IMG/VR virus record: IMGVR_UViG_3300030098_000939
Location: 1 to 37,121 of that record
Reading direction: 5' to 3' (one strand)
From: a virus
DNA: 37,121 nucleotides
Part shown: in pieces, positions 7,911 through 36,696 of the stretch
Numbering within the stretch: position 1 is the stretch's first letter
How the letters are laid out: each line of letters starts with the position of its first letter
Notes under the pieces: generated by a model
The model's database searches: none
What the model saw: the letters and a program-made list of their open reading frames with translations, nothing else
Told to the model about the DNA's origin: nothing
Position numbers and translations under genes: made by a program

Positions 7911-8097
7911 TTACAATACTCCTTAACATTTCCTTAATCTCTTTGATCTCACCTTTAAGTTCATCTATTTCTGCTCTTTCACTTTGTTTATGTTTTCGAG
8001 CATTAATATAGTTTTTGTAAGCAGTCATATCAGTTGAAACAATTGCGTTTGAGTTTTCATCTCTGTAAAGAGAATGGTTATTTTTTACAGGTATCAT
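7900..8097 (-). CDS. 65-residue helical protein
   Basis: Begins MIPVKNNHSLYRDENSNAIV, with a C-terminal helix of strong coiled-coil character (QSERAEIDELKGEIKEIKEM). Its ATG overlaps the stop of the 2555-residue gene in an ATGA (8094-8097), and its own stop lies inside the next gene, showing tight coupling. From memory, proteins with the same YRDENSNAIV-type start occur in many T4-like phages and are of unknown function. A minor virion or assembly role is plausible. Confidence 0.75.
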   Translation of the reverse strand: MIPVKNNHSLYRDENSNAIVSTDMTAYKNYINARKHKQSERAEIDELKGEIKEIKEMLRSIVNGN

Positions 8098-17330: not shown

Positions 17331-17353
17331 TTACTTAGACTTTTTTTCTTTAT

Positions 17354-20300
17354 TTAGTAAGAACGTTTGATGTTTTTAATTCTGCGAATTACAGGAGCAG
17401 TTGATAGTCCAGTAATACCATCATCAGTAACAATACTGAACGCATGTGGGTCACTATCTCTAGTAACATTAGATAATTTACCGAAAGTATAATTACCAAA
17501 GTAACTATTAATTCCAGTAGTAACACTCTCTGTAGAAGATACACTAACTGTGACTCTTTGAACCCCAGTTGTACCAACTCCAACTACAAAATTTTCACTA
17601 TATGAAACAGACATTGCTTCATATATGTTATCTATAAAGGTAGATCCAATACCAACAGTACCAATACCAGTTCCTGTGCCATAGGATGTTAATCCAATAC
17701 CAGTATTTGAATTGTGTACCATAAAGATATCTCCTGCTGATATTACAGATAATGTCACCGCAGATCCAACTCTCGTTGCATCTCTGAATAATTCATTTAC
17801 ATATAGATCAAACACTAATCCTGTGGATGCAACACCTACAGTAGTAGCAGCAATACCAGAAATAAATCCAAAGTCTCCTTGTACAGTAGGAGTTCCTAAT
17901 GTATCAGCAACACCAGTTGGTTCTCCAATTAGAACCAATGGAGTGGTTGTATTTGTATATCCAGCACCAACTTCATCAACAGTCAATGTGTTGACTGTTC
18001 CAGCAGCACTGACTGTAGCAGATGCGGTAGCAAGTGTGCTTACACCAAAGTATGTGCTAATAGAAACTGTAGGTGCTTGAGTATACCCCATACCTGCATT
18101 CGTTAAATCTAAACTGATAGTACCAGTATCAGAAACAATAGCAGTTGCTGCAGCTGCAATCTTAGGTCCATCTTCATCAACAATAATCAAATCTAGTTCA
18201 GAGCCTGTATATCCCTCTTCATTATCATCAAATAGTGGACGTAGACTTTCAACGTAGATTGTTGTTGATCCCACGCCAACATTACTAATAATTCTAGTAG
18301 AAGGAGTAATCGCAGACTCGTTAATTATTCTTGCTTTAGAAACATATATACCATCAACAACAATATCATCCTTCTGCTTAATCCAAGTCAAAGGACGTTC
18401 CATAGCAGTATTAGTAGTAATACCAGGACCAAAATATTGAATTGTACTAAACTTATCAGAAGTTTGAATACCACTAACAATACGTTCGTTTTGATCTAAT
18501 CCAAAAGTTTCAGATCTAGTGGCTTCATCACGAAGACGAACCTTATCACCTTTCTTAATAGTTTCAACAATATCAACGAATACAGAGTCCTCAGCAGATC
18601 CCTTAAAGTAATATACTTTTAGTGTATCACCTGCTTTAGGTGCTTCGAGGAAATCGATAACACTACCACCTTTAAACTCATAAGAAACTCCAGGATCTTG
18701 AAGAATATCATTGATAAAGATTAATAAGTTATCTTGAATTCTAATTGGAGATCCTTTAGCAGATCTAAGTGAAACAGGAACTCCTGCTTTTCTGATTGTA
18801 AAGGATTTTTTCACTCCATCAAAGAATGGACTAAAGTTATCAAGAACTTCTAATTCTCCAAATGTCCAAGCAGAGAAACTATCATCATGAACTGATTCGA
18901 CAATAATCTGGAAGTCTTTAAAGTTTGCAGGTGTGCCAGTTGTTGGAATGCCAGCAAAGTTTGCAGTATTAGCAGGAACTGTTAATACATCACCAACAGC
19001 ATAGTTACGTCCAGTATTGACAATGGTAAAGTTAGTTACGCTATTACCCAGACCAACTGTAATATCAACAGTTGCATCAACTCCATTTGTAGTAGAACCA
19101 CCAGCAGCAACTAATGGAATATTCTCATATCCTGTGGGTTCATCAATAAAGACTTTAGGTGGATTAGTAAATGTATATCCAGAAGCCACACCATTTGTAA
19201 CTCCAATACTTACCACGTATCCATCTTCAACAACAGCAGTACCAATTGAAACAATATTTGGATATCCAGTAGATCCTGAAGTTCCTACACCAACAAATAC
19301 TGTTTGAATACCGATCCTATAACCACTACCACTATTACCAATAGATATTGACTCAATAGTTCCTAATCCAGAAATTACAGCAGTACCACCAGCAGAAATT
19401 AATGGTTGATATCCCATTCCCTCTGATGATCCAACATTAACAAGAATACCACCTCTAGGTAGAGTACCAACATTTAAGTCTGATGTTACAGATGAGGCCG
19501 TGCCAGTAAATGTTATAGAAGAAATTCCACTGGTATCTTCTGTTAGGTTATAGTCAACATCTGGACCTTGGAAAATCTCATTCAATAAGAATACTCCATT
19601 ATTGGTAGAGAATCCAGTAACATTTGCTGCATTGCTTGTTAAAGTAAATGTCTTCGCAATACCAGTAAAGTCTTTTGATATAGAATCAAATAAGATATTA
19701 TCTTCATAAGCTTCACTATCATCAGACTCTGCAGTTCTAATAAAGGATCTTCCTTGGAAAGTAGAACGTGTTTGTAATCCAGCAAAACCTTCTTCACCAT
19801 AAGGAGGTTCAACAAAGTTAAGTGAGTTACCTAATATAGTATAGTTTCCATCAAACTTAGTAACGATTGCAGGAGCAGTATGAACTCCAAGAGCACTACC
19901 CAACCAACCTCTATCTAATAATAATTGATTAGCAATACCAGCAAAACCAGTAGATTTAACTCTCATATATTCATCATCAATTTTTATAATATCACCACCA
20001 ATCATTGAAGCAATACCCGTTATCTGAGCATTAACTTGAGAAGCATTCATAGTGCTCACCAATCCAACGGTAACACCAGTAGAAACGATTGGTGATTGAA
20101 TATTATTATCAAGAGCAATCAAACACTTAGTGTCTTGCTTGTGAGATGTAATAGAGTGACTATTACCAGTTCCAACTGTGGTAAATCCAAGAACTGTTGG
20201 AGGTGTTGCAAGAGCGTCAGATGCAGTAGGTGCTAATCTGATTAGATCTTCACTAACTTTAACAGCAAAAACAGTTGTTCCAATTACACCACCTGATGTA

Positions 20301-23300
20301 GAAATACCATTTCCATCATAAGCATATGTAAGTTTCTCACCAGTAACTAAGAAATGATCTGCTAATTGGATTGTATTTGCATCAATACTAACAACTGAAG
20401 TATCAATCTCAGGATCCCAAACCTTTCTAAAGATTGGTCTGTTTCTATGAGTAAGATTAAAGTTACGTTTAACAACAGAAAGAGTACCACTATAAGTACC
20501 TTCCCCAGCACGGAATTGACCAACTGAATTACCATCTCCTATTCCAAGAGTAGAAATACCACCAGATCTTTGGTTTTCAAGTGTTTGTCCAAATACTCTT
20601 ACCTTAGTTGCTATATTTTCATTTGGTGTAAAGAATACACAGAAATCACCACCAGAATATCCAGTGCCAACAGTTCCTAATCCAACATCTAATCCATCTC
20701 CATCATCGTCATAAGAAAGAACTTCACCATACTCTGCAGAATAAGTTTGAGCTACAATACCATCACTTGATTGAGAAACAAGCATCTCTCTGACAGATGC
20801 CTTGGTATTGGTAGTATCTTCAACGTTTATTATAAAATGAGCACCTTCATACTCTGTACTTGTAAATCCACAAATTTTATTTTCACCAGGTGTTGCAGAA
20901 GAAGAAATTTCAGTATAGAATGATTCCATCATTCCTTCTATTAGTGTTGTGGAACCAACTCCAGTAGCATTAGAATTGAATTCATAATCCACAATCTTAA
21001 CAGCACACGTGGTATTAATACCAGCATTTGGATAGAAATTCAAATTAGTTAAACCATTTGTTTCAACTCCAAATGTTCCTATAAATCCACCACTACAGAA
21101 GGATCCATAGTCAACAAATCCTGTTCCTGAATCATTACCAGTCCTATCATGAACAATATTAATTTCTGCAAACTGATGAGTAGAAATACCAGAAGTAGTT
21201 TGTACAACTTCAACTAATACTTTATTACCAGCAGAGTTAGTAGAACTAATACCAAGGATACTACTTGCTGCTCCAATAGCAGTGGTTGTAGTAAATCCAG
21301 TGACTGTAACTAAATCTCCTATGGATGTTGATCCAATTCCAGTGACAGCACCAGTTCCAACACCAGTCATTCTGTTAAAGTCAACAGAAATGAAATCTAT
21401 AACATAATTGTTTAATTCAAACTTAGTTGGGAAGAAATTGACATTAGCAAAAGCACCACTAAAGACATAATCAAAATGTCCTAAGAAACCAGAGCTATCA
21501 ATGCTATACTGATTAATATACGCAAATGTACCATCTTGGACAATATTGAAGAATCCAGTTTGAGTCTCACCAGTGAATCTTGTGTCTTTTATATGATAGA
21601 AGTATCTGTGGGCAGAGAAGGTATCTTTGTTTACAAAATCAAACTTCTCAAATGGATCTGTTCGAGGAGTACTAGAGAATAGATCTCCAATATCATCAAT
21701 CGATATAACCCTGTTAGTTCTTGCTTCCTCATAATCAGTAAGAATATTATTCTCTAGAACAATCTCTTTGGAAACAGTTATCTGATTTGCACTGCTTATA
21801 CCAGCAACTTCAACACTTAACTCAGTTGCTGAATCAAAATCTAACTGAGTACCAACATCAGTTACTGATGACAAATCAACCTTAACATCTATGGTTTGAG
21901 CACCAACAGATGCAGAAGCAGCTCCTCTACCAGGATTTGGAAATCCTTTTCCGCCTTGGCCATAAACACCTACACCTTGTTCATCTGCATTATTAGGTCT
22001 TCCATCAAAAGATTCAATCTCCATGTCAGAGAATTTTTTGAATCCACTAGTATGTGTTATTTCACCAACTACATCTTTCCAAGTATCAAATTGAACTGGA
22101 GACTTAATTGCATATGAGAATGATTGATAGTAATCATTATCTGGTATTCTTTGACGAGAATCGTTTAAGAACCCAGTTATATTTTGATTACCTTGTCTTT
22201 GTTCTACAAGAGGCCCTACATCAAAAGTAGATTCAAATTTTTCAATTGATTGTACAAATCCAACTTGATTAGATGAATTACCTTCAATTTGCTTGCCTTC
22301 TTCAAATACATCACCAGTAGCAACTCTTAATGTATTATTATTTTTATTCCACCCAATAACAGTACCAGTCTTAGTTCCAGTAAGAGTTTCTTGAGTAATT
22401 TTTTCTTTAATATTAAAATCACCTTTTCTAGTTACTGGTTCAAAACCAGGAAAATGTTTTTCTGGTATTATCCTACCAGCAGATGCATCTGGATCATATT
22501 CACCAGGATTATCATTTTCTAGAATAAAAGTAACTTTAGGATTAGCACCACCTAAATTTGGTGTAATAGAATTAAGAGTAAAGAGGTCATAATCATACTC
22601 ACTAGAATTATATCCAAATCCAGTAGTGGCGATACCAACACCTTCAATTAGAACCTTATCTCCAATTGCAAATGGGAAATCTTGACCAACAGAAAAATCA
22701 GTATCAAGAGTAAGTTCTACTGTTGCAGAAGTAGTTGTAAATCCAACAGTTTCAATACCAACTCCATTAGAGTTATGAATAGGTATTATAGTTGGATTGG
22801 GATCTTGAAGTCTCTTAGTATTCTTGTTGATTATAGCACTAGAAACACCAACTGATCCAGTTACTTCAGTAGTGATATCACATTCATCTAAAATTAATCC
22901 ACTAACTCTATCTTTAACAATCAACTTGGGTGGAGTAGAATAATTATGTCCACCAGAGGTAATACCAACATGATCTAAAGATCTAAATCTATCAATCTTA
23001 AAGAGACTTGGTAATGCTCCAGTTGGACGTAAAGTCTGATCATATGGGAATTCATAACCAGGATTAGTAATATGAGTTGTTTGTACTCTACCAATTGAAT
23101 TACTCTCTACTCTTAAAATACAACCATTACCATATGTTGTAGCAGCAGTTCCTGTATATGATCTGCTTACAGTAGAAATACCAGGAATACTATTATAACC
23201 ATATCCTTTATTTGTTATCTTCACATCTGCTATAGGCCCTAAAGCACCAGCAGAAGAAGTTTCATATGATAAACGAGCAGATATATCTGTATAACTAGAT

Positions 23301-26300
23301 TTTTCTGGTTCGTTTGGAACATTAAAACTAAACGTCGTTGATCCAATAGATGATATCTTAAAGTTACCATCATATAAAGAATCCTCTAACTTGATAGTAT
23401 TATAATTGTTGACAGTTTTGTCAACAGCAATTTCAGATTGAACTGTAGTAATTCTATCAGGATTAACAGGAGTTAAGTTGTAATAAAGTATCTCAGGAGT
23501 TTTGTCATTAGTTTGTAAGAATACCTTTCCACCATCTATACCAACACTTCCACTACTAGTAACATCAAATTGATCAGGTGTCTCTGTAAGGAACTCATGT
23601 TTAAAATCTTGATCCCTATAGAAATTAACTGAGAATGCTGAGAAAGTTGTACCACCAGAAACATTTCCTAAAGAACTATCAGCAACATTAAATTCTAATT
23701 TCTGACCTCTAGTAACTTCAATAAGAGGATTAATAGGAAGAAGAGAATGTGTTACTGCCCCTCCAGTAGAAGCTAAAGAAACTGCTAATGGATATTGAAT
23801 ATTAGCGTTATGAGAGTTTGATGCTAATCTTAGTTTATCTGCACTATCTTTAATTACAAAGTAAGATGCGTTATCATCTAAACCAGATACTACACTAGTT
23901 GATTCGTATATGACTTGATCACCAGTGTTAAGTCCGTGGTTAGTAATACTAATAGTGTTATTAGTTGTATTAACGTCTCCCTGTAAGAAAGTTGCTAATC
24001 CTACTGTTGTCTTTCTATTATAATCATTATACTTAACAGTATATGAAGTAGTAACTCCAGGTAATACATCTAAAAATATTGTGTCACCAACTCCAAGACC
24101 ATGAGCAGTGGTAGCAGTTGCAGTAACAACAACTTTCTCTAATATACCAGTTAATTCAACATCCTGAGTTGTTAATGAATGGGTTACTCCTGTGCCAACA
24201 CTATGGAAGAAAAGTTGTTCGGCTGCAGTGGAAGCAACGCCAACAAAAACACCCTCAGATCCCATTCCAACTGGCATTGTTGTTAGACCAATTGTATTCC
24301 GTCCTAGATTTATTGAATATACTTGAGTTGGAAGATTAAAGTTATTAATACCATCAGTGGACACTGAAACAACTGTCCCACCACCAGCAGAATAAGTCAA
24401 TGAATCTCCAGTTGTAAAATTATGATCTGGAATGAAAATTGATCTTGTTGGAATAGCAACAGAAGTACCAACACCAACTGCTAAACCAGGAGCACTTACA
24501 GATATGATACTGTTAATACCAACCCCTGCAGTAGTTCCTAATCCTACAACTTCTGATGGGTCAAAATAAGTGCTTGTCTGAAGTTTGATTTCCTTATCTG
24601 TATTAACACCAACATTAATAGTAAGAGCACGTGGTTTTTCTTCAATGATTGATCCTTGAGTATATGCAGTTCCTACTGTTCCGTCATATTCTCTTATTAC
24701 TCTAATTCTAGAATTGAATTCATCAACATTTACAACATATAATTGTTCTGTAGATATACCAATAACATCGTCTGGTTTTAAAACAGAAGGATCACCATTA
24801 ATTGAAATAAAGGTAACTATACCAGTGGCTCCTGTGTTACCAATACCAGTGGACAACTTGAACATTGATGTGTTAACACCAATATTGTAAACACCATCTA
24901 TATTAAGTATAGATTGAGATGATATTCCAGAAACACTAACAAAGTCACCATTTTTAAAGTTATGAGGTTCAGGTGTTCTAGCAACAATTGTTTTCTTATC
25001 AGAAAGCACTTCAAAAGTAACATTTTCTTTTCTAGTGGTAGAAGAAGTTATTTTAACTAATTTCTTTCCACCAATTTTAGTTACTTTTGATGATGCAGTA
25101 GATCCACCAGTTTCTCTATTGTCAAATACTATCTGGTCGCCAACTTTATAATCAACTCCACCATTTTCAATATTAACAGTCTCTATGCCTCCTGTGGCTG
25201 CAAAAACTATGGAAGCAAAATCATCAATATTTTTATCTGGGCGTTTTACATATTCATAATCACTAGCATTGAACGAGAGTTTGTATGGATAGATGTTTCT
25301 TACATAACCACCCTTATCTAAGTCAAGTTTTGTTGTAATTGAATCTGGACTAAAGTTGAATGGATCTGGTTTAGACTTAAATGCTTCACCAACAGCATAT
25401 GGGAATACTGGAGTAAAATACTTATCGAAAGTAGCGTCCTGTTGAGAAGAACTATCAATAGTTGCAAAGTATGCGTAAGTACCCTCTGGATAATCAGGAG
25501 TCTTACAGAAACGACCATTATACTTGTCTAGATCACCTTTATTGGTAAATGTATAATCATTAGTGAATGAACCTAATTCCCAATCACCAACACTAGGACC
25601 AAGTTGTCTAGTAGCGTTTAATTCATAACCAGGAACCATTCTTCTAATGGCACCACCATCAATATTAGCAAATCCATAAGGACCATAGATGGGGTTACCA
25701 TCATATGCAAATCCTAGTATTGGTGAGTGGTTAGAAGACACTTCCTCTGCGTTTTCATATTCCAAATCATATGTACCATAATCTTTCAAACCATTTAACT
25801 TAAGAGAAGGAAGCATTTCTCTTAGTTTTCTAGGAGCATATAAATGAGTAAACTGAGATCCAAATGTCGCAGTGCTAGGCTCCATAAAACCATCATCAAG
25901 TTTTATAAGAGACTTATATCGTTTTACATTATCGAGTTCCCATGCTTTGACCTTTGGTTCAATAACAGGTGCTCTACCAGCAGCGTCTACAGCAGTCTCT
26001 ACGCTTAGGAAAGATCTATCAGTAACAAATCCAACACCACCACTTACAACGGTCACAGAGGTGATTACACCGTCCTCTATGACTGGAGTTAGAGTGGCAT
26101 AAGTACCAATACCAGATGTAATAATTTCTGGAGGAGCATTATATCCTGTACCCCCTCTAGTAACGATTACCTGATCAATTTTACCATCTTGTACAACTGG
26201 TCTAAGTTCAGCACCAGATCCAGCAAGAAAATCAATATTTGGTGTTCTATTATAACTTACAATCGCAGAGTTACCATATCCAGTTCCATTCTGGGTTAGA

Positions 26301-29300
26301 TCAATGGAAGTAACAGATCCTCTTACAACAGGGATCATAGTTGCATTATAATCACCTAGAGAAGATGAAATACCAAGTTCTCCACTTATGGAAACAGATA
26401 TTGGTTGATAGTTAAAGATGTGGGTTCCAACTCCAACTCCAGTAAATCTAACATAAGTTCCATTGTCATATGCTTCTGTTAAAGTACCACCAACACCAGC
26501 AAGAGCAACTCTAAAGTTATCTTTATCAACAACAATGGCTTGATATTGTGCTGTAGTTACCAAACCACTAATTGCAGTTCCTGTAGTTTCGTAAGTTAGA
26601 ATTTCTCCATTTTCATATCCATGATCTTCAATATTAATTGAGTTAGTTGCAGTATTAATTCCTGTAACAATAACACTTCTTTTTTTGTTCTCATATCCAG
26701 TTCCTGGATTGGTTATAAAGATTTTGTCAACAACATTCTTCTTTTGTACACTCTCAAACTTTTGAGTACCTGATCCTTTGTCAGATAGGTCTACAGTATT
26801 AATACCTGCAATTGCATCATCAAAATGTGAATGTAATGTAATAGCAGTATTGCTAGACAGACCTACAAAGTAGATTGATCCATCACCCAAAGTTGTTGTA
26901 CCTGTTCCAACAGCCGTACCATTGTTTTGACGGTAGAATACTCTCTCACCACCATTAAACAAATGGAATGTAGTAAAACCTATTATATTATCACTTGTAT
27001 TGATACCAACTTCTACATCGAGTGAAGCAAAGTGTGTTCCCTGCTTCATCTTAGCTTCTGCTTTAGCACCAGAACCATTACCACCAGTAATGGTAATTTG
27101 TGGTTGCTCTAAGTAATCAAATCCTGCATATTTTACATCTATTCTCTCAAAAGAACCTTTTACGTTAACATGACCAGTAGCACCAACACCAGCATTATCG
27201 GTAATAAGCAATTCTGGTGGATTTATAATATCATGTCCAGATCCACCATTCAAAACATTAATTGCTTCCAATTCTCCATAGTAAATGGCATCCCTTGACT
27301 TATAATTTGCAAGTTCAACACCATTTACAAACATACCTGTTTTTTCACCAGGAATTGTTGTAAACTCTTCTCCAGAAGAATCGAATACAGGTTCAGAGAA
27401 CCTTCTTACCAATCTTTGTGAATCAATTGCTTTATCTTGTAGTCTACTTGCAAATTCATGTGTAGTGATACCAGCACTGTTACCAGATAAATCAATAAAT
27501 TTACCAGCATCAATATTTGCACGAGAATATGCTAATTTAAATGATTGATCATCAACTTTAAATGCAAAGTAAGATCCTTCAGTTAGAGGAGATATTGGTA
27601 AAGTTGTTGTAGAAGTAGAAACAACTCCATCAATCAAAGCAGATGTTGTTGTAGTACCTGGAACATAATAAACCTCATCACCAGTAATAAAGTCATGACT
27701 TCTTGATGTAGATATTGTTTCACCAGAGAAGTTAGCAGCAATTTTTACTGAAATACCTCTTAGGTCAGCATTAAGTTGTTGATTTGCATAGAATGGAATA
27801 GATGCTGAAGTTACATAAGTCTGATGTTCTGGTTTACCCTCTATGAAATCGTGTCGAGCAGCAACATGGTTTGCTCCAACCATCTTTCTACCTTTATGCT
27901 CATGATATGGGCCTGCATAAGGAACTCCACTAACAATACCAACTACATTTAAATCATATGCATTACTAACATTTGCACTAAACTTATAAGTTGGTTGTTT
28001 AACTGCAGGAAGAACTTCTGCTCTAATTAATTCATTTCTAGCTTTGAATGTGTGTGTTAAATCAAGAAATCCAACACCACTAAGAATTGCAATTTTACTT
28101 GATGGTACATCTACAACTGCAGCACTACTTTCTGCAGAATTAAATTGATCAATAAGTGTAATCTTATCACCAATGTATAGAAGATGAACTTCTGGACATG
28201 TAATTTTAATATTACCGTTACCTATATCTTCAACAGTCTCTATATTAAAAATATTAGGAACATTATAAATCCATTCTGTAAATGACTTATTTGTATCTTC
28301 TAAAATACCAAGATTCTGTACATCGATAGAATCTCCAGTAACCATTTGATTACTTGGACCAGGAATAACAAAATTAGATACTACACCTGTAATTCTGACA
28401 GTTATCTTATTTCCATCATCATCAAATCCATAGATGCTAGATTTTAATCTAACAAGAGAATCTTTACTAATAACAGAGGTATTACCAGAAAGTCCTAAAA
28501 ACTGAGTGGTAGTAATGCTTGTATAAGTAATTTCTTTTGAATCTATTACTAGAGTTCCTGAAGATGGGAATCCAATAGTAGAGTCAACATAAATTGTATT
28601 TACATCGGCAATCTCATCAGTTACAGTCCTAGTGGTAGGAGTAACACTAAATTTACCGTAGATAGAACCAGACTCACTGATATCTTTGTCAGAACCAGCA
28701 TCCAAACTTATTTGATAAAATTTATTACCTTCTCTATTATATGAAATTACATTAGCGATAGAACCGTATGAATAGTTAAGAACACCAGCAACAGAATCCT
28801 GATATAATGTTTGACCAATAAGTTTATAAGGATCTCCTGAAAGAGCAACTACAACTAAATCTTCTGTAATTCTATAATCAGCATCAGAAGGTTTAATCGT
28901 ATTTTCATATGGTTTTACAATAGTTGCTTTTGAACCATAGAGAGCACGGAACAAAATTTCAAAAGAATCATCAGTTCCTTTTGTTGTATAGAGGTCTTTT
29001 GCTTGTTTTGCAAAAAGAGATTGATCAAGTCCAGTAACAAAAGCTCTATCTTGTAAACCAGGAACATATAGTTCCTTGTACTTTCTAAAGAACTCTACAA
29101 GAAAGAGATTACTTAAATTGGTTACTACACTATCATCAACGTGTGCTGCAGAAGCTGATGTAGTAAATGTAAGTCTATCACTTTCATCATTATTAAAGAG
29201 TGATGTAATTGCACTAAAAGCACGTTTACAATCAAAAAATTGTCTTTTATCTTTACTAGTATAAGTTATTATTTCATTATCAATTTTTAAATATCCATAG

Positions 29301-29578
29301 CGATCAGGAAATCCAACTGTAGAGTTAACTGCAATAGTAGTATCAAACGCAGTTATTGCTCCATCTAAATTAGTAGATGTAACAAGGTCTTGTTGACGGA
29401 AAGAATCATTCTTAATATATTGATCTAAGTTCTCAGCAAGATCAATAGGTGCTCCTTGAGCCTCTTGTGATTTATAATATTGTTCTAAAAATTCTCCAAA
29501 CAATGGAGACTCAGATCTAATTTGCTCAGGAATCTGGTTAGAGACTACCGAATAAGTTTTTGCTCTTGTTTCTATCAT
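17354..29578 (-). CDS. 7: 4074-residue gp7-like giant baseplate wedge protein with YHYH-type domain
   Basis: Position between gp6 and gp8 is that of T4 gene 7 (1032 residues). Residues about 190-250 (KDLYTTKGTDDSFEILFRAL, then YGSKATI and EDLVV, LIGQTLYQDSV) match the T4 gp7 C-terminal part (DFYSTKGIEASYKFLFKVLY, EDLV, GQTIYTATG). The N-terminus (SESPLFGEFLEQYYKSQEAQ) is typical of phage wedge proteins. The rest is an enormous beta-rich extension. It contains about fifteen Gly-Tyr repeats (for example NPGTGYENKK, NAGMGYTQAPTVSIS) and three IDxE-type modules. A motif YHEHKGRKMVGANH sits near residue 559. At about residues 1275-1400 is a YHYH-type domain (HSPILGFAYDGNPIYGPYGF, then LDKYNGRFCKTPDYPEGTYA, FPYAVGEAF). 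Near residue 3600 is LLIFINDILQDPGVSYEF, a fibre-type module. The ORF is intact over 12.2 kb. The start ATG shares a base with the gp6 stop. Confidence 0.85.
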   Translation of the reverse strand: MIETRAKTYSVVSNQIPEQIRSESPLFGEFLEQYYKSQEAQGAPIDLAENLDQYIKNDSFRQQDLVTSTNLDGAITAFDTTIAVNSTVGFPDRYGYLKIDNEIITYTSKDKRQFFDCKRAFSAITSLFNNDESDRLTFTTSASAAHVDDSVVTNLSNLFLVEFFRKYKELYVPGLQDRAFVTGLDQSLFAKQAKDLYTTKGTDDSFEILFRALYGSKATIVKPYENTIKPSDADYRITEDLVVVALSGDPYKLIGQTLYQDSVAGVLNYSYGSIANVISYNREGNKFYQISLDAGSDKDISESGSIYGKFSVTPTTRTVTDEIADVNTIYVDSTIGFPSSGTLVIDSKEITYTSITTTQFLGLSGNTSVISKDSLVRLKSSIYGFDDDGNKITVRITGVVSNFVIPGPSNQMVTGDSIDVQNLGILEDTNKSFTEWIYNVPNIFNIETVEDIGNGNIKITCPEVHLLYIGDKITLIDQFNSAESSAAVVDVPSSKIAILSGVGFLDLTHTFKARNELIRAEVLPAVKQPTYKFSANVSNAYDLNVVGIVSGVPYAGPYHEHKGRKMVGANHVAARHDFIEGKPEHQTYVTSASIPFYANQQLNADLRGISVKIAANFSGETISTSRSHDFITGDEVYYVPGTTTTSALIDGVVSTSTTTLPISPLTEGSYFAFKVDDQSFKLAYSRANIDAGKFIDLSGNSAGITTHEFASRLQDKAIDSQRLVRRFSEPVFDSSGEEFTTIPGEKTGMFVNGVELANYKSRDAIYYGELEAINVLNGGSGHDIINPPELLITDNAGVGATGHVNVKGSFERIDVKYAGFDYLEQPQITITGGNGSGAKAEAKMKQGTHFASLDVEVGINTSDNIIGFTTFHLFNGGERVFYRQNNGTAVGTGTTTLGDGSIYFVGLSSNTAITLHSHFDDAIAGINTVDLSDKGSGTQKFESVQKKNVVDKIFITNPGTGYENKKRSVIVTGINTATNSINIEDHGYENGEILTYETTGTAISGLVTTAQYQAIVVDKDNFRVALAGVGGTLTEAYDNGTYVRFTGVGVGTHIFNYQPISVSISGELGISSSLGDYNATMIPVVRGSVTSIDLTQNGTGYGNSAIVSYNRTPNIDFLAGSGAELRPVVQDGKIDQVIVTRGGTGYNAPPEIITSGIGTYATLTPVIEDGVITSVTVVSGGVGFVTDRSFLSVETAVDAAGRAPVIEPKVKAWELDNVKRYKSLIKLDDGFMEPSTATFGSQFTHLYAPRKLREMLPSLKLNGLKDYGTYDLEYENAEEVSSNHSPILGFAYDGNPIYGPYGFANIDGGAIRRMVPGYELNATRQLGPSVGDWELGSFTNDYTFTNKGDLDKYNGRFCKTPDYPEGTYAYFATIDSSSQQDATFDKYFTPVFPYAVGEAFKSKPDPFNFSPDSITTKLDLDKGGYVRNIYPYKLSFNASDYEYVKRPDKNIDDFASIVFAATGGIETVNIENGGVDYKVGDQIVFDNRETGGSTASSKVTKIGGKKLVKITSSTTRKENVTFEVLSDKKTIVARTPEPHNFKNGDFVSVSGISSQSILNIDGVYNIGVNTSMFKLSTGIGNTGATGIVTFISINGDPSVLKPDDVIGISTEQLYVVNVDEFNSRIRVIREYDGTVGTAYTQGSIIEEKPRALTINVGVNTDKEIKLQTSTYFDPSEVVGLGTTAGVGINSIISVSAPGLAVGVGTSVAIPTRSIFIPDHNFTTGDSLTYSAGGGTVVSVSTDGINNFNLPTQVYSINLGRNTIGLTTMPVGMGSEGVFVGVASTAAEQLFFHSVGTGVTHSLTTQDVELTGILEKVVVTATATTAHGLGVGDTIFLDVLPGVTTSYTVKYNDYNRKTTVGLATFLQGDVNTTNNTISITNHGLNTGDQVIYESTSVVSGLDDNASYFVIKDSADKLRLASNSHNANIQYPLAVSLASTGGAVTHSLLPINPLIEVTRGQKLEFNVADSSLGNVSGGTTFSAFSVNFYRDQDFKHEFLTETPDQFDVTSSGSVGIDGGKVFLQTNDKTPEILYYNLTPVNPDRITTVQSEIAVDKTVNNYNTIKLEDSLYDGNFKISSIGSTTFSFNVPNEPEKSSYTDISARLSYETSSAGALGPIADVKITNKGYGYNSIPGISTVSRSYTGTAATTYGNGCILRVESNSIGRVQTTHITNPGYEFPYDQTLRPTGALPSLFKIDRFRSLDHVGITSGGHNYSTPPKLIVKDRVSGLILDECDITTEVTGSVGVSSAIINKNTKRLQDPNPTIIPIHNSNGVGIETVGFTTTSATVELTLDTDFSVGQDFPFAIGDKVLIEGVGIATTGFGYNSSEYDYDLFTLNSITPNLGGANPKVTFILENDNPGEYDPDASAGRIIPEKHFPGFEPVTRKGDFNIKEKITQETLTGTKTGTVIGWNKNNNTLRVATGDVFEEGKQIEGNSSNQVGFVQSIEKFESTFDVGPLVEQRQGNQNITGFLNDSRQRIPDNDYYQSFSYAIKSPVQFDTWKDVVGEITHTSGFKKFSDMEIESFDGRPNNADEQGVGVYGQGGKGFPNPGRGAASASVGAQTIDVKVDLSSVTDVGTQLDFDSATELSVEVAGISSANQITVSKEIVLENNILTDYEEARTNRVISIDDIGDLFSSTPRTDPFEKFDFVNKDTFSAHRYFYHIKDTRFTGETQTGFFNIVQDGTFAYINQYSIDSSGFLGHFDYVFSGAFANVNFFPTKFELNNYVIDFISVDFNRMTGVGTGAVTGIGSTSIGDLVTVTGFTTTTAIGAASSILGISSTNSAGNKVLVEVVQTTSGISTHQFAEINIVHDRTGNDSGTGFVDYGSFCSGGFIGTFGVETNGLTNLNFYPNAGINTTCAVKIVDYEFNSNATGVGSTTLIEGMMESFYTEISSSATPGENKICGFTSTEYEGAHFIINVEDTTNTKASVREMLVSQSSDGIVAQTYSAEYGEVLSYDDDGDGLDVGLGTVGTGYSGGDFCVFFTPNENIATKVRVFGQTLENQRSGGISTLGIGDGNSVGQFRAGEGTYSGTLSVVKRNFNLTHRNRPIFRKVWDPEIDTSVVSIDANTIQLADHFLVTGEKLTYAYDGNGISTSGGVIGTTVFAVKVSEDLIRLAPTASDALATPPTVLGFTTVGTGNSHSITSHKQDTKCLIALDNNIQSPIVSTGVTVGLVSTMNASQVNAQITGIASMIGGDIIKIDDEYMRVKSTGFAGIANQLLLDRGWLGSALGVHTAPAIVTKFDGNYTILGNSLNFVEPPYGEEGFAGLQTRSTFQGRSFIRTAESDDSEAYEDNILFDSISKDFTGIAKTFTLTSNAANVTGFSTNNGVFLLNEIFQGPDVDYNLTEDTSGISSITFTGTASSVTSDLNVGTLPRGGILVNVGSSEGMGYQPLISAGGTAVISGLGTIESISIGNSGSGYRIGIQTVFVGVGTSGSTGYPNIVSIGTAVVEDGYVVSIGVTNGVASGYTFTNPPKVFIDEPTGYENIPLVAAGGSTTNGVDATVDITVGLGNSVTNFTIVNTGRNYAVGDVLTVPANTANFAGIPTTGTPANFKDFQIIVESVHDDSFSAWTFGELEVLDNFSPFFDGVKKSFTIRKAGVPVSLRSAKGSPIRIQDNLLIFINDILQDPGVSYEFKGGSVIDFLEAPKAGDTLKVYYFKGSAEDSVFVDIVETIKKGDKVRLRDEATRSETFGLDQNERIVSGIQTSDKFSTIQYFGPGITTNTAMERPLTWIKQKDDIVVDGIYVSKARIINESAITPSTRIISNVGVGSTTIYVESLRPLFDDNEEGYTGSELDLIIVDEDGPKIAAAATAIVSDTGTISLDLTNAGMGYTQAPTVSISTYFGVSTLATASATVSAAGTVNTLTVDEVGAGYTNTTTPLVLIGEPTGVADTLGTPTVQGDFGFISGIAATTVGVASTGLVFDLYVNELFRDATRVGSAVTLSVISAGDIFMVHNSNTGIGLTSYGTGTGIGTVGIGSTFIDNIYEAMSVSYSENFVVGVGTTGVQRVTVSVSSTESVTTGINSYFGNYTFGKLSNVTRDSDPHAFSIVTDDGITGLSTAPVIRRIKNIKRSY

Positions 29579-33939: not shown

Positions 33940-34079
33940 CTAAGTTCTTTTATTTTATCACTCCAATATTCTCTTTCACTATCATCAATCCAAGGAGAAT
34001 GTACCATTACATGTGCATGTTTTAACCAATCTTCTTTCTTCCAATGTCTCTTAGGAGCCATATGATCTTTAAGAGTCAT
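33936..34079 (-). CDS. 47-residue Trp/His-rich protein
   Basis: ATG at 34079, TGA at 33936-33938. It starts MTLKDHMAPKRHWKKEDWLK, continues HAHVMVHSPWIDDSEREYWS and ends DKIKELS. It is hydrophilic with four Trp and four His. Its ATG shares one base with the TAA of the preceding gene (TAATG), a strong sign of a real coupled gene. No family is recognised. Its last codons contain the -35 box of the next promoter. Confidence 0.65.
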   Translation of the reverse strand: MTLKDHMAPKRHWKKEDWLKHAHVMVHSPWIDDSEREYWSDKIKELS

Positions 34080-34267
34080 TAGTAACTATCGTCTCCTGAA
34101 GGTAAAGATAAGACTCTCTCAAAACTTAAGTCTGCTACTTTTCCTAGAGGTGTACTAGGTCCACACATACTGTTCAACATACTCCACCTAACATTAAAGT
34201 CCTCTTCACTTAGATTGTGAAAGAGGACTTCTCCTTTAGCATATATGTGGTAACTAAACTCTGTCAT
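34079..34267 (-). CDS. 62-residue conserved small phage protein
   Basis: I choose the ATG at 34267 (MTEFSYHIYAKGEVLFHNLS); ATGs at 34273 and 34279 are also in frame and would only add MKMT. The product reads on as EEDFNVRWSMLNSMCGPSTP and ends SLPSGDDSY. From memory, short proteins beginning with a YHIYAK...L...EEEF pattern are common in cyanomyoviruses, all of unknown function. It overlaps the cupin gene by 14 bases and the 47-residue gene by one, so it sits in the middle of a coupled set. Confidence 0.75.
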   Translation of the reverse strand: MTEFSYHIYAKGEVLFHNLSEEDFNVRWSMLNSMCGPSTPLGKVADLSFERVLSLPSGDDSY

Positions 34268-34592
34268 AGTCATCTTCAATCCTCACAATGTCTTCTTCTA
34301 TACATTCATCACCTACTTGAACCTCGATAATGGTAAGACCGTCGTCTCCTGCCATAATACGATGATTCACCTTAGTGGGAATATAGAAGTATTTACCAGG
34401 ATAGGCTTTTAGAGTATCTTCGCCAAGTATAATCTTACCATACCCTTTGACACATACCCAATGCTCGCACCTCTTATAATGATACTGTAGAGATAACTTA
34501 CTATTAGGTTCAACAACTAATCTCTTTAACTTATAACCATCTTCTTGAAAATGATCTTCGTAAAAACCCCAAGGGCGGAAAAATCTATACAT
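34254..34592 (-). CDS. mannose-6-phosphate isomerase-type cupin
   Basis: The 112-residue protein is a single cupin domain like the C-terminal domain of bifunctional mannose-1-phosphate guanylyltransferase/isomerases. RPWGFYE starts the domain (6-12), then LVVEPNSKLSLQYHYKRCEH (25-44, metal ligands likely His38 and His44), WVCVKGYGKI (45-54), YIPTKVNHRI with His77, and IIEVQVGDECIEEDIVRIED (88-107). The family isomerises mannose- and fructose-6-phosphate or acts as a sugar-binding cupin. The guanylyltransferase half is absent, so a stand-alone sugar-phosphate role is likely. The start ATG lies in the loop of a predicted hairpin (34562-34616) and has no clear ribosome site. A sigma70 promoter lies upstream with a leader of about 150 bases. 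Confidence 0.88.
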   Translation of the reverse strand: MYRFFRPWGFYEDHFQEDGYKLKRLVVEPNSKLSLQYHYKRCEHWVCVKGYGKIILGEDTLKAYPGKYFYIPTKVNHRIMAGDDGLTIIEVQVGDECIEEDIVRIEDDYDRV

Positions 34593-34616
34593 GAAAAAAA
34601 TCTTGGCGGGGTTTTT
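34562..34616 (-). promoter_or_regulatory. hairpin enclosing the cupin start codon
   Basis: Plus-strand aaaaaccccaag (34562-34573) pairs with cttggcggggttttt (34602-34616) except for a 3-base ggc bulge, giving 12 base pairs. The 28-base loop contains the ATG at 34590-34592. In the RNA the stem ends GGGG followed by a U run about 10 codons into the cupin gene, so the fold resembles an attenuator or a start-codon trap. Confidence 0.45.
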
Positions 34617-34639
34617 TATATAGAAAAATTTTTTGAAAA

Positions 34640-34647
34640 AATTTATA
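34640..34647 (-). promoter_or_regulatory. candidate late promoter box before the cupin
   Basis: Minus-strand TATAAATT matches 7 of 8 positions of the T4 late box. It lies 48 bases upstream of the cupin ATG inside a very A/T-rich stretch (34624-34644 is itself an A/T inverted repeat), so chance occurrence is likely enough to keep confidence low. Confidence 0.25.
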
Positions 34648-34691
34648 TGCTAAAAGCAGACTTTTGTAGGTTAGCGTTAGGTACTTTTTTT

Positions 34692-34718
34692 ATAACGCAT
34701 CGGGACACGCCCCGTTAT
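34692..34718 (-). repeat. 5'-leader hairpin
   Basis: Outer arms ataacg (34692-34697) and cgttat (34713-34718) plus inner ggg (34702-34704) and ccc (34710-34712) form a 9-bp stem with a 4-base bulge and 5-base loop. It lies in the cupin leader, about 25 bases after the expected RNA start. The flanking run is A on the minus strand, so it is not a terminator. Confidence 0.4.
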
Positions 34719-34747
34719 CAACGAACGCCGAAATACTGTCCGTACTG

Positions 34748-34776
34748 ATTATAACATAAGACTGCCAATCTGTCAA
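34748..34776 (-). promoter_or_regulatory. consensus sigma70 promoter upstream of the cupin
   Basis: Minus strand: TTGACA at 34771-34776, exact 17-base spacer, TATAAT at 34748-34753, with an extended -10 (TGT before the box). Expected RNA start is near 34741. The core and downstream sequence (GCAGTCTTATG...TATAATCAGTACGGACAGT, in parts) is repeated in the promoter at 35040-35068. Confidence 0.85.
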
Positions 34777-34800
34777 TCTAAATGTTAAGAACTGTCCATA

Positions 34801-35013
34801 TCAGTTGTTGTTAATCAGGCCATAAGATTGCTCCCATAAAGTGTCAATGTCAACTGACAAATTCTCGACGGTAACTGATAGTTTCTCTTTGTCCTCATTT
34901 ATATCAAATAAGGCATGGTAATCTATCTGATTTGGATGAAAAGAATTCCCATCAATTTCAAAGTCTAAAGTAACACGAATATGCTGTAAATCATCAGCAG
35001 GGTTAGTGTACAT
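34801..35013 (-). CDS. 70-residue protein of unknown function
   Basis: Starts MYTNPADDLQHIRVTLDFEI and is acidic, with alternating strands (RVTLDFEIDG, KLSVTVENLSVDID) suggesting a small beta-rich fold. It ends LWEQSYGLINNN. The last residues QSYGLINNN recur as QSEGLINNN inside the 87-residue protein 490 bases upstream, and the DNA there is 23 of 26 identical, so the two share a duplicated piece. GAAGG lies 2 bases before the ATG. A sigma70-like promoter is 27 bases upstream and an exact late box is farther up. Confidence 0.65.
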   Translation of the reverse strand: MYTNPADDLQHIRVTLDFEIDGNSFHPNQIDYHALFDINEDKEKLSVTVENLSVDIDTLWEQSYGLINNN

Positions 35014-35039
35014 AACCTTCGAGTGATTGTCCTATACTA

Positions 35040-35068
35040 ATTATAACTTATAAGACTGCTAATTGCAA
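35040..35068 (-). promoter_or_regulatory. sigma70-like promoter before the 70-residue gene
   Basis: Minus strand: TTGCAA at 35063-35068 (4 of 6 to consensus), 17-base spacer, TATAAT at 35040-35045. RNA would start near 35033, about 20 bases before the ATG at 35013. The spacer GCAGTCTTAT and the region after the -10 (TAGTATAGGACAAT) resemble the promoter at 34748-34776. Confidence 0.6.
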
Positions 35069-35091
35069 CCCCTTATATGTTACAAACCGTG

Positions 35092-35135
35092 TAGCGAGTA
35101 CTTGACAAGAACTCTCTTCTATGTTATGCTCGCTA
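35092..35135 (+). promoter_or_regulatory. plus-strand promoter framed by a 7-bp inverted repeat
   Basis: TTGACA (35102-35107), 17-base spacer and TATGCT (35125-35130, 4 of 6) with an extended TGT form a forward promoter. tagcgag (35092-35098) and ctcgcta (35129-35135) are perfect reverse complements that bracket it, an arrangement like an operator. No ORF of sensible size follows on this strand. The transcript would run through the gap towards the hairpin at 35293-35322, so a small RNA is possible. Confidence 0.45.
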
Positions 35136-35166
35136 AGATCACTAAACCTCAGCACGATTAGCAGGG

Positions 35167-35174
35167 TATTTATA
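35167..35174 (-). promoter_or_regulatory. exact T4-type late promoter box
   Basis: Minus-strand TATAAATA matches the T4 late-promoter consensus at all 8 positions and lies in a gene-free gap. It faces the 70-residue, cupin, glycosyltransferase and structural genes. Expected start is near 35160. It is the only exact box I found between genes on the coding strand. Confidence 0.5.
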
Positions 35175-35256
35175 ACACTTTCTGAAGACAATATTCTACT
35201 AAGTATAAACAATCAATTTACATTTAATTAAACGTTTTTAACACATAATCCACTAG

Positions 35257-35286
35257 TTTTCCACAGAAAGTAATACTTTTTCCACA
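35257..35286 (+). repeat. paired TTTTCCACA sites (DnaA-box-like)
   Basis: TTTTCCACA occurs at 35257-35265 and 35278-35286 in the same orientation, 21 bases apart (two helix turns), each followed by GAAA. Both fit the relaxed DnaA box TTWTNCACA. The surrounding sequence is AT-rich and gene-free. They may be protein-binding sites; a replication role is speculation. Confidence 0.4.
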
Positions 35287-35292
35287 GAAATA

Positions 35293-35322
35293 CCCCCTGA
35301 GTTGTTGTTACTAACTAGGGGG
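35293..35322 (-). terminator. GC-capped hairpin at the end of the 87-residue gene
   Basis: CCCCCT (35293-35298) pairs with AGGGGG (35317-35322) and AGTT (35300-35303) with AACT (35313-35316), with a single bulged base and a 9-base loop. It overlaps the TAG stop at 35311-35313. The following minus-strand bases TATTTCT are only a weak U-run, so termination may be partial. Confidence 0.5.
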
Positions 35323-35574
35323 CAATTCATGCTTTCTAACTGTTATATTGTAGTCGTAATCCTTGAACAAATTCATTAACATTAGTGTGTTTAATTTGCC
35401 CCAAGAATCTATACAATATGTCTGGTAAAATCCATTCACTATGTTATCCTTACTCGTATAACAGAAAGTATAAATTAACCCATCCCAATCTTGTGTTGGA
35501 TTGTTGTTAATTAGGCCTTCAGATTGTCCGTCGAAAATATTCAGTTGAGTAAGGATTTGGTCTTGATTTGACAT
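35311..35574 (-). CDS. 87-residue protein of unknown function
   Basis: Starts MSNQDQILTQLNIFDGQSEG and has an aromatic-rich middle (TQDWDGLIYTFCYTSKDNIV, then GFYQTYCIDSWGKLNTL) and a charged tail ending in LPPS. It shares QS-x-GLINNN with the C-terminus of the 70-residue protein. Its start overlaps the end of the 122-residue gene by 56 bases, with GGAG 11 bases before the ATG. No family is recognised. Confidence 0.6.
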   Translation of the reverse strand: MSNQDQILTQLNIFDGQSEGLINNNPTQDWDGLIYTFCYTSKDNIVNGFYQTYCIDSWGKLNTLMLMNLFKDYDYNITVRKHELPPS

Positions 35575-35887
35575 ACTTTAGTTGACTCCAATTAGCATCG
35601 TTACATAACAATAATGTATGGATATATTTGTGCTTTAAAGTATTATGTTTCTGTCTAAATTTGTCTGAGGTTTTACATACTGGTTTTTCCCTAATTGATG
35701 TCTCTATTGTTAAGTATCTCGTGTGCGGTTTAAATCCTTTTTTATCCTCTAATTTCTCTCCTTTAAAATATACCCAACCCTCGTCAATTATGTCTGTGTT
35801 CGGTCTTTTCCAAATGACGTAATCGTTAACTTCTGGTTCATACATAGTGGCACAAATTACGTTAGGTTCATTATAATTTATTCTCAC
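35519..35887 (-). CDS. 122-residue conserved cyanophage-type protein
   Basis: Starts MRINYNEPNVICATMYEPEV, followed by NDYVIWKRPNTDIIDEGWVY and FKGEKLEDKKGFKPHTRYLT, then YIHTLLLCNDANWSQLKYVK. From memory, proteins with the same order (EPDV...VDEGWVYF...KGFKP...HTLLLC...W) are widespread in marine cyanophages without assigned function. The DEGWVYF segment suggests a small beta barrel. It begins 3 bases after the stop of the 61-residue gene, so they share a transcript. Confidence 0.75.
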   Translation of the reverse strand: MRINYNEPNVICATMYEPEVNDYVIWKRPNTDIIDEGWVYFKGEKLEDKKGFKPHTRYLTIETSIREKPVCKTSDKFRQKHNTLKHKYIHTLLLCNDANWSQLKYVKSRPNPYSTEYFRRTI

Positions 35888-35890
35888 AGA

Positions 35891-36076
35891 TTAGTCAAGT
35901 TCGTAGTCAGGATCTAATGGAAATTCCTCCATCTTAGATTCACTTAGTGCATGAATCATACACCAAACTTTCTCACCAGACAAGAGATTTTCATCACATA
36001 AGTATGAAACAGTATCCTCGATTGTCTCAAGGATGTTGATTGCTTCTTCTCTCAATTGTTGTGGGGTTGTTGACAT
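35891..36076 (-). CDS. 61-residue acidic helical protein
   Basis: Starts MSTTPQQLREEAINILETIE, then DTVSYLCDENLLSGEKVWCM and ends EFPLDPDYELD. It is mainly helical and acidic. From memory, proteins with the YLCDENLLSGEKVW motif occur in cyanomyoviruses beside the 122-residue family, which supports both calls. Function unknown. About 96 bases separate it from the zinc-ribbon gene; that gap holds a 6-bp GC-rich inverted repeat and a TATAAA sequence that could be a weak promoter. Confidence 0.7.
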   Translation of the reverse strand: MSTTPQQLREEAINILETIEDTVSYLCDENLLSGEKVWCMIHALSESKMEEFPLDPDYELD

Positions 36077-36111
36077 TTTGTTTGAAGGATTAGGGTGAAC
36101 ATTGTTTATAA

Positions 36112-36153
36112 CGAGGCCTGCGTATCTCGGAAAGAAAAAAATCGCTCGCCTCG
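36112..36153 (-). repeat. 6-bp GC-rich inverted repeat between two small genes
   Basis: cgaggc (36112-36117) and gcctcg (36148-36153) are reverse complements with a 30-base loop that contains an A7 run on the plus strand. On the minus strand it is followed by TTATAAAC. It could be a weak terminator for the zinc-ribbon gene or a leader structure of the 61-residue gene. Confidence 0.3.
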
Positions 36154-36172
36154 GAATATTACGGAGTGATTG

Positions 36173-36343
36173 TTATACTTTAACTAAGAAATCTTCTTTG
36201 TTAATGTATTCTCTACAACCTAAACATCCTGCGGCACTCCACGCAAAATGATAAACTGTTGCAGTATGATTACACTTAGGGCATGTAATCTCCTTACCGT
36301 TTCTACCTGCTCTGGTGTAACGATTAACGTTCTTAAGTTTCAT
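36173..36343 (-). CDS. 56-residue zinc-ribbon protein
   Basis: ATG at 36343, TAA at 36173-36175. It starts MKLKNVNRYTRAGRNGKEIT. The Cys pairs are CPKC (21-24) and CLGC (40-43), the spacing of a small zinc ribbon, and the rest is HTATVYHFAWSAAG and REYINKEDFLVKV. From memory, near-identical architecture (KNINRYTR...GKEITCPKC...YHF.W) is very common in marine cyanophages; it may bind nucleic acid or a protein partner, but no function is known to me. It overlaps the preceding gene by 4 bases (ATGA). Confidence 0.85.
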   Translation of the reverse strand: MKLKNVNRYTRAGRNGKEITCPKCNHTATVYHFAWSAAGCLGCREYINKEDFLVKV

Positions 36344-36696
36344 TTAGTCCTCCCAAAAAACATATGTGGATGTAAATTACCGTACGAAGATGATGGGTAA
36401 TTGTTGAATGTAAATATCCTGATTATGTCGTCGTGAATATTACTTTGTCGCATGATTTGTATTACTAACCCTTCGTCTTTTGATTCTTCTATTGATTCTA
36501 ATACGTCGCCTAATATCATATAGTCTAGACGATTACGTACCCAAACAAATAACGAAGCATTGATAGATATTGAAAGATCTTTACATCTATTGCCTACAAT
36601 CCATGCTGCAAAGTTATCTTTTATACTCTCAAATTGTGATGCCTTAAGTTTAACACCTTGGGGTTGATTCCAATTTGGTTTCATATTAAATTCCAT
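36340..36696 (-). CDS. 118-residue protein of unknown function
   Basis: I choose ATG at 36696 (MEFNMKPNWNQPQGVKLKAS) over a GTG at 36711, because the ATG comes one base after the previous gene's TAA and has GGGGA 8 bases upstream. The product continues QFESIKDNFAAWIVGNRCKD and includes LFVWVRNRLDYMILGDVLES. It is mixed alpha/beta with a Phe/Pro/His-rich tail (LHPHMFFGRTK). No family is recognised. Its TGA overlaps the zinc-ribbon ATG. Confidence 0.7.
   Translation of the reverse strand: MEFNMKPNWNQPQGVKLKASQFESIKDNFAAWIVGNRCKDLSISINASLFVWVRNRLDYMILGDVLESIEESKDEGLVIQIMRQSNIHDDIIRIFTFNNYPSSSYGNLHPHMFFGRTK

Follow-up and report, generated by a model that had tools for sequence, protein, structure and literature searches.

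The sequence that we analysed (the window) is the viral record IMGVR_UViG_3300030098_000939, which has 37,121 bases. Judging by its T4-type genes (for baseplate, head-closure, and tail-sheath-stabiliser proteins) and by the similarity of its DNA to Synechococcus and Prochlorococcus phages, it is a fragment of a T4-like cyanophage. T4-like cyanophages are abundant ocean viruses. All of the likely genes from base 993 to the right end of the window are on the minus strand, while the longest open reading frames (ORFs) in the first kilobase (4-324 and 386-688) are on the plus strand. Two of the minus-strand genes are very long (8094-15761, 2555 amino acids; and 17354-29578, 4074 amino acids). By gene order, not by alignment, their counterparts in phage S-SM2 are annotated as a VrlC protein and as the gp7 baseplate wedge initiator. 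ARAGORN finds no tRNAs in the window.

Near the right end of the window, two small minus-strand genes are separated by 297 bp (35014-35310). The upstream neighbour, gene A (35311-35574, 87 amino acids), does not belong to a known family: it has no matches in PHROG or Pfam, and a protein search of annotated phage records found no relatives. It does have relatives in 12 IMG/VR loci. The downstream neighbour, gene B (34801-35013, 70 amino acids), belongs to phrog_12516, whose function is unknown. A protein search with gene B gave 14 loci in IMG/VR, and in the annotated phage records it was gene B, not gene A, that led to the isolate S-SCSM1. In the IMG/VR loci that hold both genes, A, B, and the gap stay together.

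In our list of likely genes, which we compiled manually from the ORFs between 993 and 36838, this gap is the largest, followed by gaps of 208 bp (34593-34800) and 96 bp. A preliminary description of the window had called the gap gene-free, and we agree. It does contain a 54-amino-acid TTG ORF (35048-35212, minus strand; a mechanical call), and we considered whether this might be a small gene. However, its frame, taken relative to gene B, is open in just 2 of 10 relatives (L003 and L010) and is interrupted by stops in the other 8, so it is not a conserved gene. The second-largest gap, which is directly downstream of gene B, contains a perfect (12/12) sigma70 promoter (34776-34748, minus strand).

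The motifs that the preliminary description had reported within the gap are present. On the minus strand, there is a sigma70-like promoter of the early type ahead of gene B (35040-35068, TTGCAA-17-TATAAT, 10/12), which is also seen in relatives, and an exact T4-type late box, TATAAATA (35167-35174), which is the sole exact copy on either strand of the window. On the plus strand, there is a second sigma70 promoter (35102-35130, TTGACA-17-TATGCT, 10/12), with its -35 hexamer at 35102-35107, its -10 hexamer at 35125-35130, and a TG before the -10 hexamer (an extended -10). Because the likely genes from base 993 on are on the minus strand, this forward promoter faces against them. It reads through an A+T-rich tract (35161-35250), which is a candidate unwinding element, and then through two exact copies of the DnaA-type box TTTTCCACA on the plus strand (35257-35265 and 35278-35286, 21 bp apart). 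The 60 bp from 35190 are 17% GC, which is the second-lowest value among the listed non-overlapping 60-bp windows.

Two further motifs were reported. A 7-bp inverted repeat (TAGCGAG at 35092-35098 and CTCGCTA at 35129-35135) brackets the forward promoter. The outer arm is missing in several relatives (L010, L011, and others), so we rejected the repeat as an operator. At the border of the gap, a GC-rich hairpin (CCCCCT...AGGGGG, 35293-35322, minus strand) overlaps the end of gene A and is predicted to fold well (z = -4.46). It is probably the terminator of gene A, although no clear T run follows it. In S-SM2, GGGGGC...GCCCCC and then TTTTT are found upstream of the conserved core that we describe below.

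The preliminary description also stated that signals are far denser in the gap than elsewhere in the window. The gap is indeed the longest one, but the number of promoters is barely above expectation: 34500-35800 has 8 promoters, versus 5.8 in shuffled sequences (standard deviation 1.9), which is a slight excess. Apart from the TTTTCCACA copies at 35257 and 35278, the window has none, and among 1260 strand-collapsed 9-mers with the base composition of TTTTCCACA (TTTTCCACA included), just 3 have 2 copies within 60 bp of each other in the window. A longer 13-mer, TTTTCCACAGAAA, was not above chance (2 found with up to 2 mismatches, 2.5 expected). The significance of the gap rests on conservation and not on motif counts in one sequence.

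Across 11 aligned relatives, the mean identity to the window is 0.77 for the gap, 0.83 for gene B, and 0.81 for gene A. Within the gap, identity peaks at the core of the forward promoter (0.89), at the boxes (0.85), and at the promoter of gene B (0.85), and is lowest in the A+T-rich tract (0.66). (The sister contig L002/L014/L136 differs so little from the window that it does not count as independent evidence.) In 8 records from relatives, which total 260,270 bases and include the sister contig, 23 of 24 copies of TTTTCCACA lie in the homologous gap, with positions matched to loci by hand. Similarly, the isolate S-SCSM1 has a single copy of TTTTCCACA in 228,827 bases, and it lies in the gap upstream of the gene B homologue.

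The most conserved part of the gap, as identified from alignments of 14 and of 13 sequences, is a core, GTGATCTTAGCGAGC (35128-35142, minus strand), that overlaps the -10 and the start region of the forward promoter. In the alignment of 14 sequences (7 of which come from records of named phages or marine viruses), GTGATCTTAGCGAGC is followed by a variable stretch and then by TGTCAA. The opposite strand of GTGATCTTAGCGAGC...TGTCAA is a sigma70 promoter whose -35 is of the TTGACA type, not the MotA middle type. Of 24 records, 16 have exactly one match to a strict pattern for the core plus the -35, and none has two, although 12 of these 24 records had been found with a similar pattern. In SynMITS9220M01, the -10 is shifted relative to the core (offset +2 instead of -3) and yet is a perfect TATAAT, which suggests that the constraint is on promoter function.

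A first, sequence-only model of the core had a match (E < 0.001) in 11 of 19 phage records, 6 of which had supplied training sequences; the match was weak in 2 more records and there was none in 6. These 6 are Syn9, S-RSM4, S-CAM7, S-B05, DSL-LC03, and AG-345-E15 (a 15.8-kb record), and the model also missed the site in S-PM2. In all, we assembled 35 non-redundant core sites, with 22 from loci with pairs of boxes and 13 from protein, DNA, or core searches. A sigma70 promoter with a score of at least 9/12 (consensus match only, with spacings of 16-18 allowed) is present in 34 of the 35 cores, versus 68 of 700 random 64-mers. Among the sites that were not selected for TGTCAA, 21 of 22 have such a promoter. 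The -10 hexamer partly overlaps the columns of the weight matrix that we used to find cores; the -35 does not.

The A+T-rich tract is also a general feature of these sites. The 180 bp downstream of the promoter have a mean GC content of 30%, as compared to 37% for the loci and 39% for the opposite side. At all 33 measurable sites, this stretch is below its own locus in GC content. In contrast, the late box TATAAATA is not clearly enriched or conserved in distant lineages: counting both strands, the box side of the 35 sites has 6 copies, versus 2.9 in shuffled sequences, and the non-box side has 3. We therefore rejected the idea of a late-box switch. The preliminary description had suggested either a switch region or an origin-like locus. 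We have no specific evidence for a switch: there is no clear enrichment of the late box, and several relatives do not have the repeat's outer arm. The conserved core, the boxes, the A+T-rich tract, and the promoter support the origin-like alternative.

Among cultured phages, we identified candidate core sites in S-SM2 (at 58.1 kb), S-PM2 (19.3 kb), S-SCSM1 (1.0 kb), and Bellamy (73.3 kb), and a less certain candidate in DSL-LC03 (80.3 kb). At three of the sites in isolates, there are overlapping annotated features: a tiny coding sequence in S-SM2, gp86 over the pair of boxes in Syn9, and two tRNAs (19177-19333) that overlap the site in S-PM2. ARAGORN finds no tRNAs in 17000-22000 of S-PM2, so the tRNA annotations there are unconfirmed. 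Gene B adjoins the element in many, but not all, of the cyanophages that have the core; in P-TIM68, they are about 13 kb apart.

Are the core and the boxes associated? We scanned viral contigs for pairs of TTTTCCACA, blind to the core, and obtained at least 120 loci. Among the 120 loci listed, 29 have a core (score of at least 15) within 450 bp, versus none of the 1780 control windows that we took from these loci. (These 29 include 21 non-redundant sites, one of which is from the sister contig L136.) With a threshold of 12, the core was found at 34 of the 120 listed loci and in 1 of 1780 controls, and with a threshold of 10, at 37 of 120 and in 4 of 1780. The orientation is consistent as well (27 to 2 among the listed loci at a score of 15). 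The other 91 of the 120 listed loci do not have a core at this score. In the reverse direction, 8 of the 13 non-redundant cores that were not found via boxes are followed by at least one exact box within 230 bp; these 13 include the window and two of its relatives.

We also searched entire genomes. With a refined weight matrix that was built without S-PM2 or DSL-LC03, the best match in the genome of S-PM2 is at 19315 (score 17.3; the next is 11.9), beside three boxes at 19231-19264. The best match in DSL-LC03 is at 80301, between two groups of boxes (80123-80579), with a narrow lead (10.4, versus 10.3 for the next). With the unrefined matrix, the S-PM2 site ranks second and the DSL-LC03 site is not in the top five. 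In Syn9, the best match to the refined matrix (70263) is not beside the pair of boxes at 52565-52589. A core is visible by eye at this pair, inside the annotated gp86, but is not among the top matches. As for the boxes themselves, no permuted 9-mer out of 1259 is as densely clustered as TTTTCCACA in S-PM2 or DSL-LC03, while 25 of 1259 cluster as well in S-SM2 and 20 of 1259 in Syn9. DSL-LC03 has five copies of TTTTCCACA at 80.5 kb.

The boxes are not found with every core. Across the 35 sites, 22 of which came from the search for pairs of boxes, 27 have at least one exact box in the 230 bp downstream, and 26 have two or more. The other 8 cores have no exact box in this range (for L029, just 30 bases are available). 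In 3 of them, the boxes are on the other side; the remaining 5 have none in the vicinity and also lack any one-mismatch box downstream. Bellamy, SynMITS9220M01, Sf-CH5, S-SCSM2R, and L149 have a core without an exact box nearby. By genome, S-SM2 has 2 of its 3 copies of TTTTCCACA at the element, AG-345-O18 (a 36.8-kb record) has 4 of 5, and S-8S55 has 1 of 3 at about 70 bp from the core match. In P-TIM68, an inverted pair lies on the other side of a degenerate core, at a distance of about 190 bp, and there are 2 copies elsewhere. Sf-CH5 and SynMITS9220M01 have 2 copies each and S-SCSM2R has 1, all elsewhere, and Bellamy has none. S-CAM9, S-SRM01, and P-SSM2 have 3 or 4 copies each, none of which are near the core match, and these three genomes count against the hypothesis that the element is an origin. 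At the other extreme, six loci (L034, L045, L071, L081, L092, and L099) have 4-7 additional copies up to about 470 bp from the core, on its far side. The preliminary description had named conservation of the boxes in relatives as a check; the boxes are conserved, but some lineages lack them. Because some cores have no box nearby, DnaA cannot be needed everywhere.

Do these boxes bind DnaA? TTTTCCACA is identical to the cyanobacterial DnaA box: in the portion of a published study that covers these sites, it is the DnaA box in most cyanobacteria, and Prochlorococcus is described as lacking a DnaA box near dnaA (PMC4674748). We examined 21 host-like genomes, which we picked by size and by the similarity of psbA to the S-SM2 gene. 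All 21 encode the DNA-binding domain of DnaA. Exact TTTTCCACA is absent from all 21 dnaA loci (about 3 kb each) and is present in 2 of 12 dnaN loci, in one of them upstream of the gene, although 3 of the 12 loci hold almost no upstream sequence. When we allowed one mismatch, we counted 17 sites over 10 host-like genomes within 450 bp upstream of the dnaN match, and none of 200 permuted motifs reached this number (mean 1.27). These sites are in five of the genomes (6, 4, 3, 3, and 1 sites), and the other five genomes have no near-consensus site upstream of dnaN. Per 450 bp, there are 1.7 near-consensus sites upstream of dnaN, 0.53 in other windows of the same loci, and 0.08 in random windows of G161. 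The phage boxes thus resemble the host's own and are closer to the consensus than these are, although the match is not universal.

Three of these genomes (G161, G243, and G211, which are marine Synechococcus-like) share an intergenic triad of TTTTCCACA that is far from dnaN and dnaA (L379 2769-3079, L380 2754-3064, and L381 2775-3084) and that adjoins, by eye, an acetyltransferase-like ORF. We considered the triad in G161 (at 1.657 Mb) as a host origin and rejected it because sampled GC skew places the origin at dnaN. The triad is possibly a site for DnaA titration or regulation. Nor is TTTTCCACA restricted to cyanobacteria, since a genome scan for three boxes found clusters of it in many bacterial phyla.

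An alternative is that TTTTCCACA is bound by some other phage protein, at a site for recombination, packaging, or regulation. This would account for the lineages that keep the core without boxes, and it is in line with the scarcity of exact boxes at host dnaA and dnaN, and with the published lack of a box near dnaA in Prochlorococcus. Against it, TTTTCCACA has the sequence of the DnaA box of cyanobacteria, and near-consensus sites are in excess upstream of dnaN in half of the 10 host-like genomes. We consider this explanation quite improbable. Another idea is that the boxes are decoys that titrate DnaA away from the host's origin and halt host replication. In E. coli, datA is a DnaA titration site, with DnaA boxes outside of the chromosomal origin. 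Two observations fit a decoy: the phage boxes are exact while the host's dnaN-side sites mostly have one mismatch, and the number of boxes near the core ranges from 0 to 7, as expected for an accessory trait. However, two boxes per genome would probably titrate little DnaA before the phage replicates. Furthermore, unlike datA, the boxes come with a promoter and an A+T-rich tract, and a decoy explains neither this tight link nor the cores without boxes. We give the decoy little chance.

Many cyanomyoviruses share the combination of a convergent promoter, an A+T-rich tract, and DnaA-type boxes, and we lean slightly towards the view that this element serves T4-like cyanophages (family Kyanoviridae) as a replication origin. 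An origin is the most likely reading because the element has the anatomy of a T4 origin, faces against the genes, has host-type DnaA boxes in many lineages, and has a plain sigma70 promoter of a fitting kind. Specifically, in phage T4, the origins oriF (or ori(uvsY)) and oriG are described, in the part of one account that concerns them, as a promoter followed by an A+T-rich downstream element, with a minimal sequence of about 100 bp (PMC3016281). Like these R-loop origins of a related phage, our element has a promoter and then an A+T-rich stretch. In contrast to our element, the T4 promoter is MotA-dependent (middle), and DnaA boxes are not mentioned in that part of the account (PMC3016281). 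According to a section of another article, cyanomyoviruses lack motA and are believed to rely, early in infection, on the host's sigma70 polymerase in its unmodified form (PMC2984593), which fits the element's plain -35/-10 promoter. The element also resembles cyanobacterial oriC, whose DnaA boxes are, in the portion of the study mentioned above, mostly next to dnaN (PMC4674748), in that it has a cluster of TTTTCCACA. Unlike oriC, it does not adjoin dnaN or dnaA, it has a conserved convergent promoter, and its boxes are missing in some relatives.

If the element is an origin, then early in infection, the host's sigma70 RNA polymerase would start at the convergent promoter (35102-35130). The transcript would cross the adjacent A+T-rich tract and remain paired to the template as an R-loop, and its 3' end would serve as the primer from which the phage polymerase makes the leading strand, while the phage's helicase and primase would load onto the displaced strand. 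Where a lineage has TTTTCCACA boxes, the host's DnaA might bind there and help to open the A+T-rich tract or to hold it open. We infer these steps (transcription, R-loop formation, priming, and DnaA binding), and hence origin activity, from the arrangement of the motifs. S-SM2 is annotated with gp59, gp32, gp41, gp61, gp43, and the helicase uvsW.

The second most likely reading is that the element controls transcription and does nothing else: a conserved antisense or non-coding transcript would regulate the upstream gene, with DnaA or another protein at the boxes. The most conserved part of the element is a promoter, there are promoters in both directions, and a promoter with boxes could equally well be involved in gene regulation. 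Also, cyanophage S-PM2 has a known antisense RNA, CfrI, as noted in one section of a published article (PMC2984593). However, the predicted transcript is no more structured than shuffled sequences (z = +1.3 and -1.0), and an Rfam search of 34000-36500 found no match above the gathering score (a sub-threshold match to sR2 is outside of the gap), so we do not favour a structured non-coding RNA. Moreover, gene A has no relatives in annotated phage records, and yet the core and boxes are found there. Nor would regulation explain why the downstream side was A+T-rich at 33 of 33 sites. Overall, we consider control of transcription alone to be unlikely.

The preliminary description had proposed GC skew as a check for an origin, and this check did not favour one. 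In all five of the genomes that we analysed (S-SM2, Syn9, S-PM2, DSL-LC03, and Bellamy), the detrended cumulative GC skew turns elsewhere and not at the element, so we do not use GC skew as support for an origin. Where nearly every gene is on one strand, however, GC skew has little power as a test.

A more specific version of the origin hypothesis, which we offer tentatively and would not bet on, is a hybrid: a T4-type phage with its own replisome might combine an R-loop promoter and an unwinding element with acquired DnaA boxes of the host's type, and a lytic phage would thus let the host's initiator license or time its first round of replication. The boxes would have been gained and lost repeatedly between lineages. 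More broadly, the element raises the idea that lytic T4-type phages may use the host's DnaA. A literature search (mostly of titles and the starts of abstracts) found no mapped origin for T4-like cyanophages, and no description that joins cyanophage, origin of replication, and DnaA box. The search did find a single theta origin that was predicted for Syn9, as stated in a section of the article (PMC2984593); like our element, it is a claim of an origin in a T4-like cyanophage. The sites that we list give an exact location for a candidate origin in cultured T4-like cyanophages.

Another sequence element, CCTAACCTACAGAGGTGACAA, is visible by eye downstream of the core in S-SM2, Bellamy, SynMITS9220M01, S-SCSM1, and P-TIM68, and a degenerate form of it is present in the window.
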